A stretch of 38,557 bases of DNA, taken from an uncultured Saprospiraceae bacterium (GTDB taxonomy: Bacteria > Bacteroidota > Bacteroidia > Chitinophagales > Saprospiraceae). The notes below the pieces were generated by a model, which ran no database searches, was not told where the DNA came from, and was given only the letters and a program-made list of their open reading frames with translations. This document shows positions 2,126 to 28,304 of this stretch, piece by piece. The position numbers and the translations under genes are program-made. The first letter of the stretch is position 1, and the number at the start of each line of letters is the position of its first letter. The stretch covers positions 1 through 38,557 of the forward strand of contig CAKZVK010000159.1 of the NCBI GenBank assembly GCA_937921825.1, written 5' to 3'.

Positions 2126-2362
2126 TTAGTTTAAGGACAATCTAATTTGTTTGCCGAATCCTTCTTGAAATATTCTCATTACTGTTGAAAGTCTTATGTC
2201 AGAAGCATTGTTTTCTATCCTTGAAATGTAGCTTTTCGTAGTCCCGCATTTCTCAGCCAATTGTTCTTGTGTCAAGCCTTTTTCCGTTCTAAGTTGCTGA
2301 AGCATTACTCCAAGTTTAAAAGCTTCAAACCCAACTTCATATTCATCTCTATTCTTTTTCAT
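2126..2362 (-). CDS. Xre-family HTH antitoxin (HigA-like)
   Basis: A 78-residue DNA-binding protein. Residues about 18-72 form a Cro/C1-type helix-turn-helix: LRTEKGLTQEQLAEKCGTTK and then SYISRIENNASDIRLSTVMR. The length, the charged N-terminus (MKKNRDEYEVGFEAFKLG) and the conserved C-terminus (FGKQIRLSLN) match antitoxins of HigBA/RelE-Xre modules. In such modules this gene follows a toxin gene with a small overlap. Here the expected toxin position holds only a degraded fragment (2349-2445), so the antitoxin looks orphaned. It would autoregulate in an intact system; orphan HigA proteins can act as ordinary repressors. Confidence 0.8.
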   Translation of the reverse strand: MKKNRDEYEVGFEAFKLGVMLQQLRTEKGLTQEQLAEKCGTTKSYISRIENNASDIRLSTVMRIFQEGFGKQIRLSLN

Positions 2363-2445
2363 TGAAATATTGACTTTTAATTCCTTGAACTTTCTCTAAT
2401 TCTAATTTCAGTGATTTTGGGATTCTAACTCATCCTCACAAAGTT
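2349..2445 (-). pseudogene. C-terminal remnant of a HigB/RelE-like toxin
   Basis: Immediately upstream of the antitoxin, the minus strand encodes RIPKSLKLELEKVQGIKSQY followed by FNEKE and a stop at 2351-2349. This overlaps the antitoxin ATG by 14 bp in another frame. It resembles the lysine-rich tail of RelE/HigB toxins (FVKKTxKTPKxEIEKAxxIRxEYF). The frame closes at a TGA (2432-2430). Shifting by one base near 2427 recovers NFVRMS, which fits the preceding FVKK-type residues. Further upstream no toxin sequence could be read in any frame. I infer a frameshifted, 5'-deleted toxin gene; the family match is from memory of the consensus. Confidence 0.55.
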
Positions 2446-20436: not shown

Positions 20437-20844
20437 TTATCTACAGACGGGTCTACGTCTGTTATAATAAGCATATCTGTCCGCTCTCCTGTATCTGTAA
20501 ATAAGATTATCGATGTCTGCCCTTAGCTCATTGAGTCTTCTTCTTTCTCGTCTAGAAAGATATCCATCTTCAAAGGCACATCTTTCTCTCTCTCTTAATA
20601 AACGGGTGAGCCGCTTTAATCTCTTTCTATCCGCCCGATTCATAATAGAGGCATAGTAACTATAATCTACTCCACGACCTCTAGTATTATAACTATAAGA
20701 ATGGTGGGAACCTCTGTCATAATATCGATCATCATAATCTCCATAGCGATCTCCTCGAGGGCGATCTGGTTGTGCTTGTACAAGCATCAATGCTCCTACT
20801 AAGAACATCCCGCATAAAATTACTTTCGCATACATAACGTTCAA
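20437..20844 (-). CDS. small exported Arg/Tyr-rich protein
   Basis: A 135-residue protein of no recognised family. It has a signal peptide (KVILCGMFLVGALMLVQA), then a tyrosine/arginine/aspartate-rich low-complexity stretch (RYGDYDDRYYDRG). After that comes a very basic helical part (MNRADRKRLKRLTRLLRERE) and a tail of the same composition. Mature charge is strongly positive, so it could bind nucleic acid or anionic glycans outside the inner membrane; this is inference from composition only. The gene is divergent from an outer-membrane protein gene across a palindrome-rich region. Confidence 0.6.
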   Translation of the reverse strand: MNVMYAKVILCGMFLVGALMLVQAQPDRPRGDRYGDYDDRYYDRGSHHSYSYNTRGRGVDYSYYASIMNRADRKRLKRLTRLLRERERCAFEDGYLSRRERRRLNELRADIDNLIYRYRRADRYAYYNRRRPVCR

Positions 20845-20944
20845 TTTTCAATGTGGCTGATCGGTGTAGATCAGCTGTCCAATATGGACGGACTATTATA
20901 TTCATGACTCCAAATATGTATGAAAGTTAAATTGCACCCAGTAG

Positions 20945-20963
20945 GGTTAACTTTAGTTTAACC
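20945..20963. promoter_or_regulatory. inverted repeat in divergent promoter region
   Basis: GGTTAA (20945-20950) and TTAACC (20958-20963) form a 6-bp inverted repeat with a 7-bp centre, between the Arg/Tyr-rich gene and the outer-membrane gene. It is the first of two TTAA-type palindromes about 30 bp apart. Confidence 0.35.
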
Positions 20964-20973
20964 AGCCATGGAC

Positions 20974-20992
20974 TTAACATTTAAAATGTTAA
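20974..20992. promoter_or_regulatory. perfect 19-bp palindrome in divergent promoter region
   Basis: TTAACATTT-A-AAATGTTAA is perfectly symmetric around a single base. It lies 66 bp upstream of the outer-membrane protein start and 130 bp upstream of the divergent gene. The shape suits a dimeric regulator. Confidence 0.4.
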
Positions 20993-21058
20993 TATTGAAA
21001 GAGCGACCATTGGTTTCTTTAACATGTACTAACAACTTCTTAAATCATCTTAACAGCT

Positions 21059-22336
21059 ATGCAAAAGTCCCTATCCTTTCTGGTTCTGCTCTTTATTTTC
21101 TCTAATGGCTATAGCCAAATAGAAAGTTATGACATCTCAGATTATCTCTTTCCAGATGTAAATAGAAAAGCCTTACAGCTTAATCCCTTTCTAGATTTTA
21201 CCTCTTCTAACAGTCGCAATTTTATAGACTACGATGTATTTGATATTGGAACGGACATATTCGGGTCAGAACTTGACTATAATAGAAAGAGGCAACTGGA
21301 TCTTTTTTATCAATTAAATCTGGGATATACTTCAGGTCAAAACCCACAAACGACCTTCAATTATCAAGACGAATTTTATGCTGCGGCTCAAGTGAATATA
21401 GCCAACAGGTTATTCCTTAAACCGAGACGCTTTTTTGAACTTGCTGGTGGTGGTCGTTTTGCCTTTGATCCTGACTACACATTCGCTGGTGAGAATAGAG
21501 ATGAAGTAGACATTAATGTCAGCATAGCTCCAAAGATAGGATTCGGTAGGACAGAAATTATTACTGACGCCTGGCATGCCGTCACTATACTAGAAGAGCT
21601 ACAAAAAGGCGGTGTCCTAGATAAAGAAATATCACATGAAGAAATTACGGCTTTAGCCGACGAGCTAAGAAGACTTAAGAATTATAGAAATGTGGACTTC
21701 CGGTTAGAAGACCTTTATGAATTAGAGTCTTTAGCTAGATACATGGTAGAAAACAAATTCTCTACACCAGAACAATATAAATTCTTTGCCCTGCTGAATG
21801 ATGCTTATAGATTTGAGGCCTTCGAAAGAAGATTTCAAGGCACAACTTTCAAGGTGGGCTTGAATGCGAACCTGAGTTATTTTGACAATGATTTTATTAC
21901 CAAACGAACACAGACTAGCAGAACTTATGGTTTAATCGCAGAATATGAAAATAGAAACGCCATCAATAATGACTGGCAGTTTGATCAAATATATGCTGTC
22001 CAAGCTGGTCGCCTTTATTTTAGCCCTATAGATACAGAGCAGTTTTTTGACGATTATTTTGTACAACTGAATGCCACTTTATCTCTGGGTTATTTTTTTA
22101 GTCAGAGAACGAATATTCGTATACCGTTATTTGCTTCTTATAGAAAACAAGACTCCTTAGAATCATACAATTATTCGATTAGTTTAAATCCTACCTTAGT
22201 CTACTATGTCTCACCGCAATTGAGATTTAGTGCCCGGGGCAGATTTAATTTAGCACAGACCTCAAATGTAAATGTAACCCTTATTGATTATCAGTTTGCT
22301 TCATTGTCGGCTGGTATGAGTTATTTCTTTTATTGA
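21059..22336 (+). CDS. putative outer-membrane beta-barrel protein
   Basis: A 425-residue exported protein with a signal peptide (MQKSLSFLVLLFIFSNGYSQ). The rest alternates polar and aromatic residues typical of beta strands, and the last residues are GMSYFFY, an aromatic C-terminus suitable for BAM recognition. A central helical insertion at about residues 170-245 (TILEELQKGGVLDKEISHEE) interrupts the barrel pattern. No named family was recognised. The upstream region contains two palindromes shared with the divergent Arg/Tyr-rich gene, so the two may be co-regulated. Confidence 0.6.
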   Translation: MQKSLSFLVLLFIFSNGYSQIESYDISDYLFPDVNRKALQLNPFLDFTSSNSRNFIDYDVFDIGTDIFGSELDYNRKRQLDLFYQLNLGYTSGQNPQTTFNYQDEFYAAAQVNIANRLFLKPRRFFELAGGGRFAFDPDYTFAGENRDEVDINVSIAPKIGFGRTEIITDAWHAVTILEELQKGGVLDKEISHEEITALADELRRLKNYRNVDFRLEDLYELESLARYMVENKFSTPEQYKFFALLNDAYRFEAFERRFQGTTFKVGLNANLSYFDNDFITKRTQTSRTYGLIAEYENRNAINNDWQFDQIYAVQAGRLYFSPIDTEQFFDDYFVQLNATLSLGYFFSQRTNIRIPLFASYRKQDSLESYNYSISLNPTLVYYVSPQLRFSARGRFNLAQTSNVNVTLIDYQFASLSAGMSYFFY

Positions 22337-22523
22337 TGGAGGGGGGGTAACTGATCTATGGACGTTCTTTGGGGAAGCTCAGTACAGGTCTTTTGAGAAG
22401 AGAAGTGAGTTATGGGCACCTACAAATAAACTTTGTTCTTGTAATAGGTAAGTATCATGCAAGCTGAGGATTAAAATCAAGAATTAAAATAAAAAAACTA
22501 AGCTGTAGTTAGAAAATCACAGA

Positions 22524-23096
22524 ATGAGTGAAATAGTCATATATCAAGATTCAAATAGTCAAATCGAATTAAATGTTCAATTAGAAGGAGAGACAGTATG
22601 GTTAACTCAGAAACAAATGTCAGAATTATTTAATACTACTCCTCAGAATATAACGATGCACCTAAAATCAGTCTTCTCAGAGGGTGAATTAGATGAAATT
22701 TCAACTTGTAAGGATTTCTTACAAGTTCGTCAAGAAGGAAATAGAAAGGTCAAAAGGAACCAAAGACACTACAATTTAGATGCAATCATATCGGTTGGAT
22801 ATAGAGTCAAATCTGAAAGAGCAACACAATTTAGAATATGGGCAACATCTAAGCTAAGAGAACTTTTGGTTCAAGGCTATGTCGTTAATCAACAACGTCT
22901 CAAAGAAAAAGAACAGGAAGTAAAGGTTTTAAAATCAGGCATTCAAATATTAGGAAGAGCTATAGAACAAAAGGCTGAAGAAGAAGGCTATGTCTGGTTA
23001 GATACTTTCGCTAAGGGACTCGGTTTATTGGACCTTAGATCGTCGAGGTTTGTAAACCTCGATGCAGTACGCTTGAAATTAAAGAAGCAAAACTAA
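22524..23096 (+). CDS. rhuM: truncated RhuM-family protein with REP-encoded tail
   Basis: A 190-residue protein; RhuM family members are normally around 330 residues. The N-terminal signature is clear: DSNSQIELNVQLEGETVWLT, then QKQMSELFNTTPQNITMHLK and NLDAIISVGYRVKSERATQF RIWA. The middle (GIQILGRAIEQKAEEEGYVW) still aligns with RhuM. From about residue 170 the sequence is the translation of the 111-bp direct repeat (RSSRFVNLDAVRLKLKKQN), so homology stops where the repeat begins and the C-terminal third is missing. RhuM proteins occur in genomic islands and near restriction systems; their biochemical role is unclear. This copy is probably non-functional or altered. Confidence 0.75.
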   Translation: MSEIVIYQDSNSQIELNVQLEGETVWLTQKQMSELFNTTPQNITMHLKSVFSEGELDEISTCKDFLQVRQEGNRKVKRNQRHYNLDAIISVGYRVKSERATQFRIWATSKLRELLVQGYVVNQQRLKEKEQEVKVLKSGIQILGRAIEQKAEEEGYVWLDTFAKGLGLLDLRSSRFVNLDAVRLKLKKQN

Positions 23097-23142
23097 CTAT
23101 CAATATAGCCAGTTAAGTTTTCAAGTTTAATTACATCTACTG
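23032..23142. repeat. direct repeat copy 1 with REP palindrome and RAYT tail
   Basis: About 111 bp nearly identical to 24902-25013, same orientation, with a handful of substitutions and a one-base indel. It starts ACCTTAG and contains the palindrome TCGAGGTTTGTAAACCTCGA (9-bp arms) with CGTC and GATGC at its edges. It ends in the 3' end of a RAYT-type transposase read on the minus strand. In this copy the transposase homology continues to 23296. Confidence 0.9.
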
Positions 23143-23296
23143 AAAGCTCGCCAGTACTATCCAAATAGCAACTTGCACTACTGTAAAGATAGTCTTCTGC
23201 TTTAGATACAAGACCTGCTCTAATCGGATTTTGATGAATGTAAGCTAATTTCTGATTTATCCATTTTGGTGAAACCAGTTCTATTGGGTAACCAGT
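23093..23296 (-). pseudogene. C-terminal fragment of a RAYT (IS200-like Y1) transposase
   Basis: On the minus strand 67 codons read YPIELVSPKWINQKLAYIHQ and NPIRAGLVSKAEDYLYSSAS, ending LENLTGYIDS and a stop at 23095-23093. YIHQNPIRAGLVxKAEDYLYSSA is the signature C-terminal block of REP-associated tyrosine transposases. The frame is closed by TGA at 23299-23297, and the HUH motif and catalytic tyrosine are missing, so only the tail remains. Its end overlaps the last 4 bp of the truncated rhuM frame. Confidence 0.8.
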
Positions 23297-23349
23297 TCAA
23301 TTAAGCAGCACCTTGATTTTCTGGTCAGTATACATTTATCTTTATTAAT

Positions 23350-24753
23350 ATGAATTCTACGATAGAACAACCAACTATACCGGATTATTTAGCAGAAGAA
23401 ACTCGAATTCTGCTAGACAAATTTGGAAAAGGAAGCCACAAACCTGGATCAGGTAGTGCTGCAGCATTCTCAGGAATGATATCAGCCAAACTTTTGTTGA
23501 CCGTAATTAGTCTAACTATTGATGAAAAAAGAAAAGAAAAGTATCAATCTAATTGGCCTCGACTAATAGAAATAAGTGAGGATGTTAAAAACATTATTTT
23601 TCCTAAGCTATGTGAATTATTTCAAGAAGACTGTGAGGCTTTTAGCTTAGTCGTAAAAGAAAGAGAGAGAAGAGATGCAACTTCAGATGAACTTGAAAAG
23701 GCAATTATTCAGCGTAGTATTGACTCCTATATGGTAGACGCCATATCGATTCCATTTGAAATAGCTAACATTTGTACGGAATTGGCTAAGTACTCTCTTG
23801 AGGTATTTGACCTTGGGTGGAAAGCAGTCCGAGGAGATTCTGGAGTTGCAATAGAGAATGCCCTAGCAGCAATAGGAGGAAGCACTTTTGTAATTACTCT
23901 GAACCTTAGTCACATCTCAACTCTGAATGAATTTTCAGCAAATTCTAGAGTAGAATTACAAAGAATTGAATCTGAATTTGGTAAACTTAAGAAAGCTTTG
24001 GAGGTTCGACATCAAACTCTAAGAGATGAACTTTACTCAAGAGTTGATATACAAGATTCGATTTATTCAATTAAGGAAAATATTTCTTCTCAAGAACTCA
24101 ATAACTACGATTACATTCAAAGAATCGTCAGAGATGTTCAGTTAGCCTTATCCAAGAATCACAATATAGGTTCAGAATCAACTCTGAAACAAAAGATTAA
24201 AATCCTTAATGCACGTAAAGTGCTAGCTCACTTGGGATACAAAGTAGCATATAGTAACAAAGTCGGTTCAGCATATGTCTCTAAAAAGTATAAAGAGATT
24301 GCAGGTGTTTGTGACAACAAGAACCAATTAGTAGCTATCTCCAAACTATATGAAAAAGAAATACAGAGGTTTACTTTAGCACATGAACTTGGTCACGCTT
24401 TACTCCACAGTGAAGAAACTATGTTTAGGGATATTCCATTAGATGGTGCTGACAACCAAGTGAGAGATATAATAGAGATTCAGGCAAACAAATTTGCCGC
24501 TTTCTTTTTGATGCCTAGTAAGTTGGTTACTGATGAATTCTATAGAAGATTTGGTCTGTCAGCTATTACTTCAGATATCTATAAATCATCTATGAATTTT
24601 TCTCCTCAAAGCCAGATTAAATTAAGAAAGATATCTCGACACTTCGCTTCTCTTGTGCAAGAGGAGTCCAAAGACTCAATAGCAAAATTGTTTGGTGTCT
24701 CTCATGAGGCAATGGCAATTAGACTAGAAGAACTTCAGTTAGTCGTTCAATAA
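23350..24753 (+). CDS. FTCD_C (cyclodeaminase-like) domain fused to ImmA/IrrE metallopeptidase
   Basis: A 467-residue two-domain protein. Residues about 15-195 resemble the formiminotransferase-cyclodeaminase C-terminal/cyclohydrolase fold. KPGSGSAAAFSGMISAK (31-47) corresponds to the family's PGGGSVAA loop. FQEDCEAFSLVV (91-102) matches the EDAEAF helix, and GDSGVAIENALAAIGGSTFV with LNLS (162-187) matches the closing helices. A helical linker (about 196-285) leads to the ImmA/IrrE domain. That domain has the zinc site HELGH (345-349), Glu376 in EIQANKFAAFFLMP (376-389) and the C-terminal AKLFGVSHEAMAIRLEELQL. ImmA/IrrE peptidases cleave repressors after DNA damage; the N-terminal half could be a folate- or nucleotide-type sensor. 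No Xre repressor partner is adjacent. REP repeats flank the gene. Confidence 0.75.
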   Translation: MNSTIEQPTIPDYLAEETRILLDKFGKGSHKPGSGSAAAFSGMISAKLLLTVISLTIDEKRKEKYQSNWPRLIEISEDVKNIIFPKLCELFQEDCEAFSLVVKERERRDATSDELEKAIIQRSIDSYMVDAISIPFEIANICTELAKYSLEVFDLGWKAVRGDSGVAIENALAAIGGSTFVITLNLSHISTLNEFSANSRVELQRIESEFGKLKKALEVRHQTLRDELYSRVDIQDSIYSIKENISSQELNNYDYIQRIVRDVQLALSKNHNIGSESTLKQKIKILNARKVLAHLGYKVAYSNKVGSAYVSKKYKEIAGVCDNKNQLVAISKLYEKEIQRFTLAHELGHALLHSEETMFRDIPLDGADNQVRDIIEIQANKFAAFFLMPSKLVTDEFYRRFGLSAITSDIYKSSMNFSPQSQIKLRKISRHFASLVQEESKDSIAKLFGVSHEAMAIRLEELQLVVQ

Positions 24754-24757
24754 AGGC

Positions 24758-24830
24758 AACTGATAACACAGTATGATAAGGGAATCGCTCCTTCGTCACG
24801 ACTCCCGATATACTAATTCCGTTATCAATT
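24758..24830. repeat. 73-nt imperfect inverted repeat (MITE- or REP-like)
   Basis: Outer arms AACTGATAAC (24758-24767) and GTTATCAATT (24821-24830) pair with one mismatch. Inner arms GGGAATCG (24780-24787) and CGACTCCC (24799-24806) also pair with one mismatch, and AGTAT/ATACT pair between them. The element begins 5 bp after the FTCD_C-ImmA/IrrE stop. There is no T-tract, so it resembles a small palindromic mobile repeat more than a terminator. Confidence 0.5.
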
Positions 24831-24901
24831 TACCACGATCGCGATCACCATCGCTAATCATATACACCTCCAATTCATAATACATTCTCTTTAATCTGAT
24901 C

Positions 24902-25013
24902 ACCTTAGTTCGTCGAGGTTTGTAAACCTCGATGCAGTACGCTTGAAATGTAAAGAGTCAAAACTAACTATCAATATGGCCAGTTAAGTTTTCAAGTTCA
25001 ATTACATCTACTG
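24902..25013. repeat. direct repeat copy 2 with REP palindrome and RAYT tail
   Basis: The second copy of the 111-bp repeat. The REP palindrome is intact at 24910-24931. On the minus strand 24964-25011 encodes VDVIELENLTGHIDS and a stop, the same transposase ending as copy 1 with two substitutions. Similarity ends abruptly at 25013, about 80 bp before the helicase start. Confidence 0.9.
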
Positions 25014-25042
25014 CACCAAAAGCCAACCCCGTGCACGTTAGC

Positions 25043-25058
25043 TACACAGAACTGTGTA
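25043..25058. promoter_or_regulatory. palindrome upstream of the helicase gene
   Basis: TACACAG-AA-CTGTGTA is a perfect 16-bp palindrome 33 bp before the helicase ATG, placed like an operator at the promoter. Confidence 0.4.
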
Positions 25059-25060
25059 AT

Positions 25061-25090
25061 TTAGCTTCATAATTAAAAATGAGAAGCTAA
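25061..25090 (+). promoter_or_regulatory. hairpin immediately before the helicase start codon
   Basis: TTAGCTT (25061-25067) and AAGCTAA (25084-25090) are perfect inverted arms that end one base before the ATG. In the mRNA this would form a 7-bp stem next to the start codon and could limit ribosome access. Confidence 0.35.
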
Positions 25091-25091
25091 G

Positions 25092-28000
25092 ATGTCAGAG
25101 CGCAAACCCACTAAGTACGATGTAAGTTTTCAGAATGCTTACAATAAACTCAATACAGAACAGAAAGCTGCAGTAGATGCTATAGAGGGTCCCGTTATGG
25201 TTAATGCTGGACCAGGAACTGGTAAGACTCAGATACTTGCGACACGTATAGGCAAGATACTCCAGCAGCAAGATGTCTCTCCTCATAATATTCTTTGTCT
25301 GACCTACACAGACTCCGCGACCATTGCGATGCGGAATAGGTTGGTCCAGTTTATAGGGCCTACGGCACATCAGGTGCATATCTATACCTTTCATGGTTTC
25401 TGTAATCAAGTGATCCAAGAGAACCTGGACATCTTTGGAGGGTATCGCCAACTAGAGCCTATTACAGATCTCGAAAGTGTGGATGTGTTTAGAAAACTGA
25501 TAGATGATCTCGATGATAATAATCCGCTGAAGCGCTTTAAATATGATAAGTACTATGAAGGCAAGCGTATGAAGCATCTCTTTCAGCTAATGAAGAAAGA
25601 GAACCTATCTGCAGATGAAATGAAAACAGCTACGCAGGCCTACCTAGATGATCTGCCGAATAGGGAAGAATACATTTACAAAAGAAAAACCACCGATAAG
25701 AAAACAGGAAAAGTCTATCAAAAGGGAGACGTCAAAGAAAAAGACATAAAAAAGAAAGAAGCCAGCTTCGGTGAATTACTTGCAGCTATAGAGGAGTTTA
25801 ATAACTTCAACAAGGTCATGGACGATAGCTCTAGGTATGACTTCAATGATATGATCTTATGGGTGCTAGAACATTTCTCTAAAAATGAAGACCTCCTGAC
25901 CAGGTATCAGGAACGCTATCACTACTTCCTTGTCGATGAATACCAAGATACCAATGGTGCTCAAAATGAATTACTAGATTTATTGATCTCTTATTGGGAT
26001 AGCCCCAACGTATTCGTCGTGGGCGACGATGACCAAGCCATCTATAAGTTCCAAGGGGCTAACCTAGGCAACATTCTAGACTTCCAGAAAAAGTATAAGC
26101 CCTTCACTGTAATCTTAGAAAAGAACTATCGATCTAATCAGCTCATCCTCAACAAAGCAAAAGATCTAATTCAGTTCAATCAAGAACGAATGGTGGTGCA
26201 AGTGGAAGGCTTGTCAAAGGAACTAACTGCAGAGGGTAAGTATAAAGCGGATAAAACCTCACCTACTATACTAAGCTATTCTAAGATTTCTCATGAATAT
26301 GCTGACCTGGTCTACAAACTCAAGAAACTGCATGACGAAGCTCCTCAAGAACTAAGTAAAGTCGCGATCATCTATAGAAAACATAAGCAGGTAGAAGACC
26401 TCGTTAATGTACTAGAGAAGTTAGGTGTCCCACTCAATATCAAAAGAAGAATCAATATCCTAGATCTGCCTATCATCAGAAACTTGCTGAACATTCTGAG
26501 TTACCTGAATGAAGAAATGGTCAACTACGAAGACGGACAACACAGACTCTTCGAAATCCTCCATTACAAATACTTTGGCATCAATCCTCTAGACGTCGGA
26601 AAGATAGCACTGCACTGCCAGAAAGGAGTCGTCACTGAAGAAGAGGCAGGAAAAGAAAACGAAGAAAAGAAGAAGAAAAAAATATATCCTAAATGGAGAG
26701 AGGTGATTTCTGATGCGGACTTACTAAAAACTCTTAACCTTCGAGAACCAGAAAAGGTCTTGCAAACGGCTGCCCTCCTAGATAGTCTGATGACTGAGAT
26801 TCCTATCATTACACTACAGTCTCTCTTCGAACGTATCCTCAATGAAGGCGGTGTCCTCAGGCATATCATGATTACTGAAAATAAAGCCTGGAATCTACAG
26901 GTCGTCTCTACTTTCTTTGATCTAATAAAAAAGGAAACCGCTAAAAACCCGACGCTTAATCTCAAGAGCCTACTAGCAATGGTCAAGAAGATGGAAGAAA
27001 ATGAAATTGCACTTCCTATCAATAAAACCATCTCCTCAGAAGACGGCCTTAATTTTATCACAGCCCATTCTGCCAAAGGCCTTGAATTCAAGCAGGTCTA
27101 TATGATCGGCTGTACTAAAAAGATATGGGACGGCTCTGGAAAATTTATGAACCAGTATTCCTTTCCAGACACCATCAATGCGGATAACAGTTCCAATACT
27201 GAAGATGAGAGAAGACTCTTCTATGTCGCAATGACCAGAGCAGAAACCGATCTCTTCATTTCATACGCAGAGACCAATGAAGAAGGCAAACAGCTCGGCG
27301 CCTCACAATTCGTAGACGAGTTACGTGTCGATGAAAATATCAAAGTAGTGCATCCACAGGTATCAGAGGATACGCTTGCAGAATTCTACTACAATCTGCT
27401 GGCCAGGGATCAGAAAACCATCCCTCTTATAGAAAAAGATCTAATAGACAGCTGGATGGAAGGTTATAAGCTATCGGTCACTCACCTCAATAAGTACCTG
27501 AAGTGCCCGCTTAGTTTTTATTTCGAATCTATTCTGAGAGTGCCCTCTGCAAGGAATGCTTCCACTGGTTTTGGTACTGCGATGCACCATGCGCTGAATA
27601 AATTTTTTGAAAAAATCGGTGACCCTACACAGCGATCACTAGAAAGAATGCTCTACCACTTCGAAGAAAACTTGATCAAGCATCGATCCCACTTTACAGA
27701 GGAGGAGTTCAAGAGCTATCTCACTCATGGCAAAATGACCTTAGAAAAACTTTATAAGGAACAACTCGATGAGTGGATCGCTGTGCCGAAGTATGCACTA
27801 GAGGAAGAACTGGCACATGCTGTATATAAAGGCGTGCCTCTAAAAGGATTTATAGATAAGGTAGAAGTCTTCAAAGATCATGTCAATGTCGTCGATTACA
27901 AAACCGGTAAGTACAGATCAGAAAAACTCCAACGACCTAAAAAGACCGAAGATCCTAAGGACCTCAAAAGACTCGGAGGTGATTATTGGAGACAAATTGT

Positions 28001-28304
28001 TTTCTACAAAATGCTGCTCGATAGTGACACCAAAAATGGCTGGAAGATGGCCGCTGGTAAGATATCTTTTATCGAGCCTGATAGAAAAACAGGCGATTTT
28101 ACGACCAAGGAATTTTCTGTAAAGCCAGAAGATATGCAGATAGTAGGACAGCAGATCACTGAGACCTACGAAAATATTAAAGCCTATAAGTTTGACCAAA
28201 CTTGCGAGGACGAAAAATGTCGCTGGTGTAACTTCACAACTAATAATTATGATCTGCAAGCAGATACAGAAGAGCATGATTTTAGTTATGATGACTTAGC
28301 TTAG
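25092..28304 (+). CDS. UvrD/Rep-type (SF1) helicase with AddB-like PD-(D/E)XK nuclease and Fe-S cysteines
   Basis: A 1070-residue ATP-dependent helicase-nuclease. SF1 motifs are in place: Q-motif region LNTEQKAAVDA (20-30), Walker A GPGTGKT (40-46), motif Ia CLTYTDSATIAMRNR, motif II VDEYQDTN (281-288), motif III GDDDQAIYKFQGA (311-323), motif IV LEKNYRSN, motif V TAHSAKGLEFKQVYMIG and motif VI RRLFYVAMTRAETDL. The C-terminal RecB-family nuclease has GTAMHHALNKFF and VDYKTGK (934-940). Four cysteines, Cys805 (LKCPLSFYFE) and Cys1038, Cys1043, Cys1046 (CEDEKCRWC), match the AddB-type 4Fe-4S staple. It combines helicase and nuclease in one chain, suggesting DNA repair or end processing; a defence role is possible. 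Two palindromes precede it. Confidence 0.88.
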   Translation: MSERKPTKYDVSFQNAYNKLNTEQKAAVDAIEGPVMVNAGPGTGKTQILATRIGKILQQQDVSPHNILCLTYTDSATIAMRNRLVQFIGPTAHQVHIYTFHGFCNQVIQENLDIFGGYRQLEPITDLESVDVFRKLIDDLDDNNPLKRFKYDKYYEGKRMKHLFQLMKKENLSADEMKTATQAYLDDLPNREEYIYKRKTTDKKTGKVYQKGDVKEKDIKKKEASFGELLAAIEEFNNFNKVMDDSSRYDFNDMILWVLEHFSKNEDLLTRYQERYHYFLVDEYQDTNGAQNELLDLLISYWDSPNVFVVGDDDQAIYKFQGANLGNILDFQKKYKPFTVILEKNYRSNQLILNKAKDLIQFNQERMVVQVEGLSKELTAEGKYKADKTSPTILSYSKISHEYADLVYKLKKLHDEAPQELSKVAIIYRKHKQVEDLVNVLEKLGVPLNIKRRINILDLPIIRNLLNILSYLNEEMVNYEDGQHRLFEILHYKYFGINPLDVGKIALHCQKGVVTEEEAGKENEEKKKKKIYPKWREVISDADLLKTLNLREPEKVLQTAALLDSLMTEIPIITLQSLFERILNEGGVLRHIMITENKAWNLQVVSTFFDLIKKETAKNPTLNLKSLLAMVKKMEENEIALPINKTISSEDGLNFITAHSAKGLEFKQVYMIGCTKKIWDGSGKFMNQYSFPDTINADNSSNTEDERRLFYVAMTRAETDLFISYAETNEEGKQLGASQFVDELRVDENIKVVHPQVSEDTLAEFYYNLLARDQKTIPLIEKDLIDSWMEGYKLSVTHLNKYLKCPLSFYFESILRVPSARNASTGFGTAMHHALNKFFEKIGDPTQRSLERMLYHFEENLIKHRSHFTEEEFKSYLTHGKMTLEKLYKEQLDEWIAVPKYALEEELAHAVYKGVPLKGFIDKVEVFKDHVNVVDYKTGKYRSEKLQRPKKTEDPKDLKRLGGDYWRQIVFYKMLLDSDTKNGWKMAAGKISFIEPDRKTGDFTTKEFSVKPEDMQIVGQQITETYENIKAYKFDQTCEDEKCRWCNFTTNNYDLQADTEEHDFSYDDLA

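Follow-up and report, generated by a model that had tools for sequence, protein, structure and literature searches.

A recurrent fusion of an FTCD_C domain to an ImmA/IrrE metallopeptidase suggests an uncharacterised sensor-protease among bacterial defence and mobile genes

The window analysed here, meaning the whole stretch of 38,557 nucleotides from an uncultured Saprospiraceae bacterium, carries on its forward strand a single open reading frame (23350-24753) with an ATG start, which codes for a protein of 467 aa. Its N-terminal half contains a cyclodeaminase/cyclohydrolase-like FTCD_C domain (residues 21-190, 23410-23919) that includes a PGSGS loop (residues 32-36, 23443-23457; PGSGSAAA covers residues 32-39), and this is followed on the same strand by an ImmA/IrrE (Peptidase_M78) domain (residues 317-400, 24298-24549) with a HELGH zinc site (residues 345-349, 24382-24396) and a downstream glutamate, Glu376 (24475-24477). 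Both domains, and a complete HELGH...E site in the same frame, had been claimed in the original prediction, and profile searches of the two halves bore this out: FTCD_C (PF04961) matched the 467-aa protein with 94.9 bits against a cut-off of 24.5 (E 6.1e-27) and Peptidase_M78 (PF06114) with 61.2 bits against a cut-off of 22 (E 1.1e-16). The protein thus has the curated Pfam score and the fold of FTCD_C, the stronger of the two matches, as well as the curated score, the HExxH motif and the downstream Glu of PF06114. By sequence, the closest solved structures are methenyl-THF cyclohydrolase 7vg4 for the first half and IrrE/PprI chains for the second. A long helix between residues 194 and 243 (to base 24078) is probably also part of the FTCD_C portion, since stand-alone relatives of about 223-250 aa extend equally far. 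The fusion is real, with one polypeptide holding an FTCD_C domain and a complete ImmA/IrrE zinc site.

The gene sits within an insert of about 4.2 kb (20845-25091) that has no counterpart in related genomes and is placed between the gene at 20437-20844 and a helicase-nuclease gene (25092-28304). The arrangement in relatives identifies the stretch between these flanking genes as an insert: the 20437-20844 product has a homologue (E 6e-15 to 8e-5) adjoining the helicase-nuclease in five of six relatives (L151-L155), with a permease gene next in four of these five; neither homologue nor permease was found in the sixth (L158). The fusion, rhuM and the 425-aa gene are all missing upstream of the helicase-nuclease in these six. 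The latter gene, the helicase-nuclease, had been regarded as defence cargo of the island; this could not be upheld, because it is a core gene present in 11/12 other genomes of the same genus.

Besides the fusion, the insert contains a gene for a 425-aa protein, rhuM, two REP-like repeats and a transposase-like remnant. The 425-aa protein (21059-22336) has no Pfam match, and relatives with 33-34 percent identity were found at other places in two same-genus genomes, out of 20 genomes searched. The rhuM gene (22524-23096, forward strand; Pfam and PADLOC) runs into the left repeat. Its product matches RhuM (PF13310) at model positions 1-73 of 252 only, and its match to PADLOC PDC-S05 (E 2e-66) ends at residue 169, position 173/212 of the model; rhuM is probably cut short, since this match stops where the repeat begins (23032). 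This weakens the case for rhuM as cargo. The REP repeats predicted to flank the fusion are real direct copies, identified by repeat comparison at 23032-23142 (left copy, with the palindrome CGAGGTTTGTAAACCTCG) and 24902-25013 (right copy). A 311-base query of the repeat region found eight places in the same genome, including both copies in the window; three of these REP-like places are clustered at G000:C162:19026-19454. An antisense remnant at 23097-23260, transposase-like in translation and similar to a frame in another locus (L160), resembles the terminal part of a transposase, which we would assign to the REP-associated (Y1-type) family; no Pfam match was obtained with a 102-aa frame similar to it. 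G+C content is about 0.35-0.36 over rhuM and the fusion, compared with 0.37-0.40 leftward and 0.39-0.40 just rightward. The absence of a repressor beside the fusion gene also held, as the sole Xre-type match in the window (2129-2395) is about 21 kb away.

The same arrangement was found in other bacteria. A search at the level of the order detected the full-length fusion in 4/396 genomes, the window's own included, with a fifth match to FTCD_C alone. A scan for the motif FGxGxHxPGSGSA over one genome per species (84,980) returned 63 stretches, of which 55 had an FTCD_C profile match and comprised 34 one-frame fusions, 16 stand-alone forms of about 220-250 aa and 5 broken or incomplete copies. 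The remainder were seven loci judged to be chance motif matches (L038, L052, L056, L057, L067, L074 and L077), with no FTCD_C match, and L044, a broken frame of 34 aa without profile match that is a relative by eye only. The 34 fusions include four that are cut by the locus end but were also seen whole (L039, L062, L076, L080), one with a shortened end (L054), two copies on one contig (L025 and L026) and two on the contigs of L003 and L004 (L047 and L081, respectively); the fusions of the window and of genome G381 come in addition to these 34. One stand-alone form cut at the locus end (L079) measures 243 aa in L119, and the loci of all 16 stand-alone forms gave no match to the peptidase profile. 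Among the remaining five relatives, two are broken fusions (L037, L040), two are other broken copies (L059, L082) and one is a cut copy of uncertain class (L031). The broken copies of fusion or stand-alone FTCD_C genes (L009/L040, L037, L010/L059, L044 and L082) fit rapid gain and loss.

The fusions belong to Bacteroidota, Pseudomonadota and Planctomycetota, and one stand-alone form is from Acidobacteriota. The closest relative of the window protein, 67 percent identical, comes from another Saprospiraceae MAG (L051). With 34 one-frame fusions from three phyla and both halves conserved, an assembly artefact, which would have made the fusion unique, is ruled out. Distribution is patchy: of 14 genomes in the genus, 7 with a completeness of at least 90%, one has the fusion. 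Single-protein scans of genome contigs and viral contigs gave no match, and nothing was found in viral contigs with the fusion alignment (A1) or with the motif. The phage collection had no match to the window protein (P0001) or to that of L066; in the plasmid collection four records matched P0001 in its peptidase part, none matched L073 or L066, and nothing was fused.

In a tree of 61 rows (35 fusion, 16 stand-alone, 10 canonical), the motif family separated from FtcD/FchA by a long branch with 100 percent SH-aLRT support, a split that is partly due to sampling, since rows picked by the motif miss intermediates without it. The tree is of a quick kind with SH-aLRT support, the window and L109 stand on long branches, and the canonical L006 was left out. 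L006, an FTCD_C protein of 216 aa that lacks the GxHxPGSGSA motif, adjoins a DnaA-like gene by eye and possibly belongs to an intermediate branch. Fusions require three changes on this tree, with which a single origin may be compatible. Mean identity is 0.46 and 0.45 in the two halves and 0.24 in the stretch between them, and the halves are co-inherited (Mantel r 0.75, with 0/2000 permutations as high). Where it could be computed, dN/dS was 0.08-0.16 in 11/12 comparisons (six pairs, two domains each), rough values given that dS is high in most pairs. These sequence comparisons show that both halves have been passed on jointly and that purifying selection acts on them.

Structure prediction agreed with the profiles. 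An AlphaFold2 model from the 35 fusion sequences reached a mean pLDDT of 89.5 and a pTM of 0.76. Foldseek matched its first half well to FchA and TM1560 chains (7vg4, 1o5h; TM by target 0.81-0.87, 0.86 for 7vg4 chain A), and its protease half weakly to IrrE 3dti/3dte and PprI 8sln (E 0.009-0.03, TM by target 0.28-0.35, rmsd 8-13). With the FchA/FTCD cyclodeaminase domain (PF04961; 7vg4, 1o5h, 1tt9) the family shares the fold and residues P32, G33, G35, S36, D94, D163 and N185, which are 97-100 percent kept across fusion, stand-alone and canonical rows. Conservation of F25, G26, G28, H30 and P32-A37 is by construction in rows taken from the motif scan; however, P32, G33, G35 and S36 are present in 10/10 canonical rows, the PGSGS loop is also found in the four fusions obtained by protein search without the motif (the window, L003, L004 and L005), and D94, D163 and N185 lie outside the motif, with D163 kept at 0.97 in fusions. 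Unlike FchA/FTCD, the family forms a separate branch with a protease attached. It differs from the 10 canonical rows at R108 (0.91), R161 (0.94) and G162 (1.00), as well as at H30 and S34, the last two within the scan motif, and the canonical invariants N54, T111 and others are changed in motif-family rows. The window protein scored 69.5 bits with the FchA equivalog NF045657, whose cut-off is 275. The core of a putative folate-type pocket is thus apparently kept, with its chemistry shifted toward basic side chains. Since R108 and R161 are new beside the kept D94, D163 and N185, the ligand may differ from folate, and with a pocket canonical in part only, folate may be one candidate ligand among several.

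The genomic neighbourhood was compared over 26 fusion loci of 10-20 kb on 25 contigs. Counting genes of at least 100 aa on the same strand, the fusion has one within 50 bp in 2/26 loci (L090, L106) and within 100 bp in five (also L104, L107 and L108); the fusion gene is mostly outside operons. Two neighbours of at least 100 aa were taken per side, and the control genes came from 20 stretches at places of our choosing, away from the fusion on 20 of the same contigs. At E 1e-10, the 97 fusion neighbours matched 266 PADLOC families and the 99 control genes 16, figures that count families and not proteins, since one protein can match many, and of which the first 25 of 266 were listed. The enrichment near defence genes that had been anticipated was therefore seen, against one control set, and an association with defence and mobile genes is observed across the fusion loci. 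Pfam naming covered the 97 fusion neighbours, and the first 25 of 93 families include N6_Mtase 3, AbiTii 2, HsdM_N 2, AAA_21 2, and one each of a BsuBI/PstI endonuclease, the TIR of CAP12/Pycsar, a SMODS-associated NUDIX, TraM and a Mutator transposase, together with metabolic families (Radical_SAM 3, UbiA 1, Aldo_ket_red 1).

The recurrence of the fusion protein in scattered bacteria, frequently in the company of virus-defence and mobile genes, suggests an uncharacterised sensor-protease. The original interpretation, a metabolite- or folate-gated and possibly anti-phage protease, is partly supported, with gating and phage defence as its conjectural parts. The reading we tentatively prefer, at somewhat less than an even chance, is that of a single-chain metalloprotease gated by a ligand and encoded on defence and mobile islands. 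The FTCD_C domain, with the core of its folate-type pocket kept, would bind a small molecule that changes in infection or stress; candidates are a folate or one-carbon derivative, or a more anionic ligand that could be held by Arg108, Arg161 and His30. Binding would switch the protease on, much as ssDNA acts on PprI/IrrE via a GAF-like domain, and the protease would cleave an unlinked regulator or another protein of the cell or of a phage. This last step is the least certain, and an unlinked target is proposed because no repressor is regularly encoded beside the fusion. The sensor-protease reading is supported by the domains and their fold, the recurrence and co-inheritance of the two halves, the low dN/dS, the kept residues D94, D163 and N185, the helical end that leaves no GAF-like domain, the scarcity of operon-like neighbours, the defence neighbourhood, the patchiness and the presence of a separate FtcD. 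It is weakened by the changes at several canonical invariant positions, by the 16/55 relatives without protease, in which the domain may serve elsewhere, and by neighbours that are plainly metabolic, as well as by the finding of nothing fused in the viral, phage and plasmid collections.

The main rival, which we consider possible although rather unlikely, is a CapP/ImmA-like regulator in which FTCD_C would be a novel input domain. In response to DNA damage or infection, its protease would cleave an Xre-type repressor, whose gene may lie nearby or elsewhere, and so activate a defence system or an integrative element. CapP/CapH, ImmA/ImmR and IrrE/DdrO are reported to act alike, with the protease cleaving an Xre-type repressor upon DNA damage or infection (PMC10233336, PMC10904395). 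CapP is the best match of the protease among defence models (PADLOC, E 2.6e-19) and, with the family profile, among peptidase structures (7t5t, E 9e-10); CapP of the CapH/CapP-regulated CBASS is the closest peptidase, with the HELGH..LH and AD.FA..LMP pattern and the defence setting in common. The TraM match and the conjugation-like genes seen by eye in L100, L104 and L107 would also suit this rival, and so does the greater frequency of Xre-type frames around fusions: 13 matches in 10/26 fusion loci (472 kb), compared with 1 in the 20 control stretches (240 kb). An HTH frame also adjoins one broken fusion (L009). However, in only 3/26 loci (L088, L089, L098) is the distance from the fusion to an Xre-type frame 2 kb or less, a count made with a profile built from six sequences, two of which come from these three loci. 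No Xre-type frame is near the window gene, and the fusion is seldom in an operon. An obligate Xre partner was not found, either in the window or as a constant neighbour across the 26 loci. Overall, Xre frames exceed their frequency in controls, which resembles the situation on mobile or regulated islands, but do not form a steady partner of the fusion.

The adjacent Xre repressor gene that defines CapH/CapP is not a regular neighbour here, and CapP has no N-terminal FTCD_C domain. ImmA of ICEBs1 and related ICEs shares the peptidase family, and one TraM match was found among the 97 neighbours, but the fusion family carries FTCD_C and has no steady ImmR-like partner. IrrE/PprI of Deinococcus belongs to the same peptidase family, with a weak structural match. 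A GAF-like domain of PprI that answers ssDNA is described in PMC10904395. IrrE/PprI has this domain at its C-terminus, whereas the 91 residues beyond Glu376 in the fusion model are helical, with no strands of at least 3 residues, which indicates that the domain is absent; FTCD_C, at the opposite end, may be the input domain in its place. H345, E346, H349 and E376, the last of the third-ligand type, are invariant in the 35 aligned fusions, and the same alignment shows a well conserved C-terminal tail, FGVSxEAMAIRLEELxL (residues 444-467, 24679-24750; FGVSxEAMAIRLEEL in its conserved part). Single-chain Xre-ImmA regulators such as spr1629 and RmrA hold regulator and peptidase in one chain, and the fusion has FTCD_C instead of their HTH. 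Similarity lies in the peptidase core, and the one plasmid Xre-ImmA protein compared showed none beyond it, although the match of the window protein to one PHROG profile (phrog_2439) starts at residue 222. A plasmid Xre-ImmA gene (L162:1489-3639) adjoins multiubiquitin and ThiF-family genes, an ImmA-type protein in a conflict-like setting.

It is also conceivable, though improbable, that FTCD_C is still an enzyme that generates or eliminates a signal molecule, folate-like or other, with the protease as a partner or maturation activity. The polar pocket residues S36, D94, D163 and N185, kept as in canonical rows, would be expected of an enzyme, and other defence genes have stand-alone versions as neighbours; the loss of N54, T111 and other invariants argues against it, as does a score far under the curated FchA cut-off. 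We find it very unlikely that the fusion belongs to a selfish module, as a protease of toxin or antitoxin type that addiction and not defence maintains: the spr1629 repressor/antitoxin and RmrA models gave weak matches in the peptidase part alone, and the patchy spread and broken copies elsewhere would fit, but an addiction pair needs a constant partner gene, and this is absent. An ordinary enzyme of the folate pathway whose protease tail is decaying, to which the higher Pfam score of FTCD_C might point, is hardly credible, and a housekeeping folate enzyme is rejected, given the separate branch, the complete and conserved zinc site, the defence context and a separate, complete canonical FTCD_N-FTCD-FTCD_C protein (FtcD) encoded in the same genome.

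If the sensor-protease reading is correct, one-carbon metabolism would be tied to bacterial immunity or stress signalling via one small protein, and ImmA/IrrE proteases would accept inputs besides ssDNA or DNA damage. No title on an FTCD_C-ImmA/IrrE fusion appeared among the matches listed from the open-licence literature, which does not imply absence from print. The motif FGxGxHxPGSGSA offers a handle on the whole branch of defence-associated FTCD_C proteins. A broader proposal, which we regard as doubtful, is that this branch, a defence-specific form of the folate cyclohydrolase fold, could constitute a new type of prokaryotic immune sensor. It would read a phage-altered metabolite, such as an intermediate of folate or one-carbon metabolism, with the fused form directly activating the metalloprotease within the same polypeptide and the stand-alone form serving other candidate cassettes such as PDC-M11.

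For 14 stand-alone loci, the 56 neighbours matched 140 PADLOC families, a figure with no separate control set behind it. A pair of GNAT(-PIN) and ASCH proteins, which is the PADLOC candidate PDC-M11, had 5 members each (L112, L116, L119, L123 and L124), and FTCD_C may be the third part of this candidate system. The cassette is recurrent, with a GNAT(-PIN) protein of 670-740 aa, an ASCH-domain protein and a stand-alone FTCD_C, the latter on the other strand in L112. The neighbours of the 14 loci also include three mad3 members and one each of GajA and GajB, both in L114, where an Xre regulator and a stand-alone FTCD_C lie beside the GajA/GajB-like genes on the opposite strand (L114:8974-14117). 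In L117, FTCD_C is followed two genes on by AbiH.
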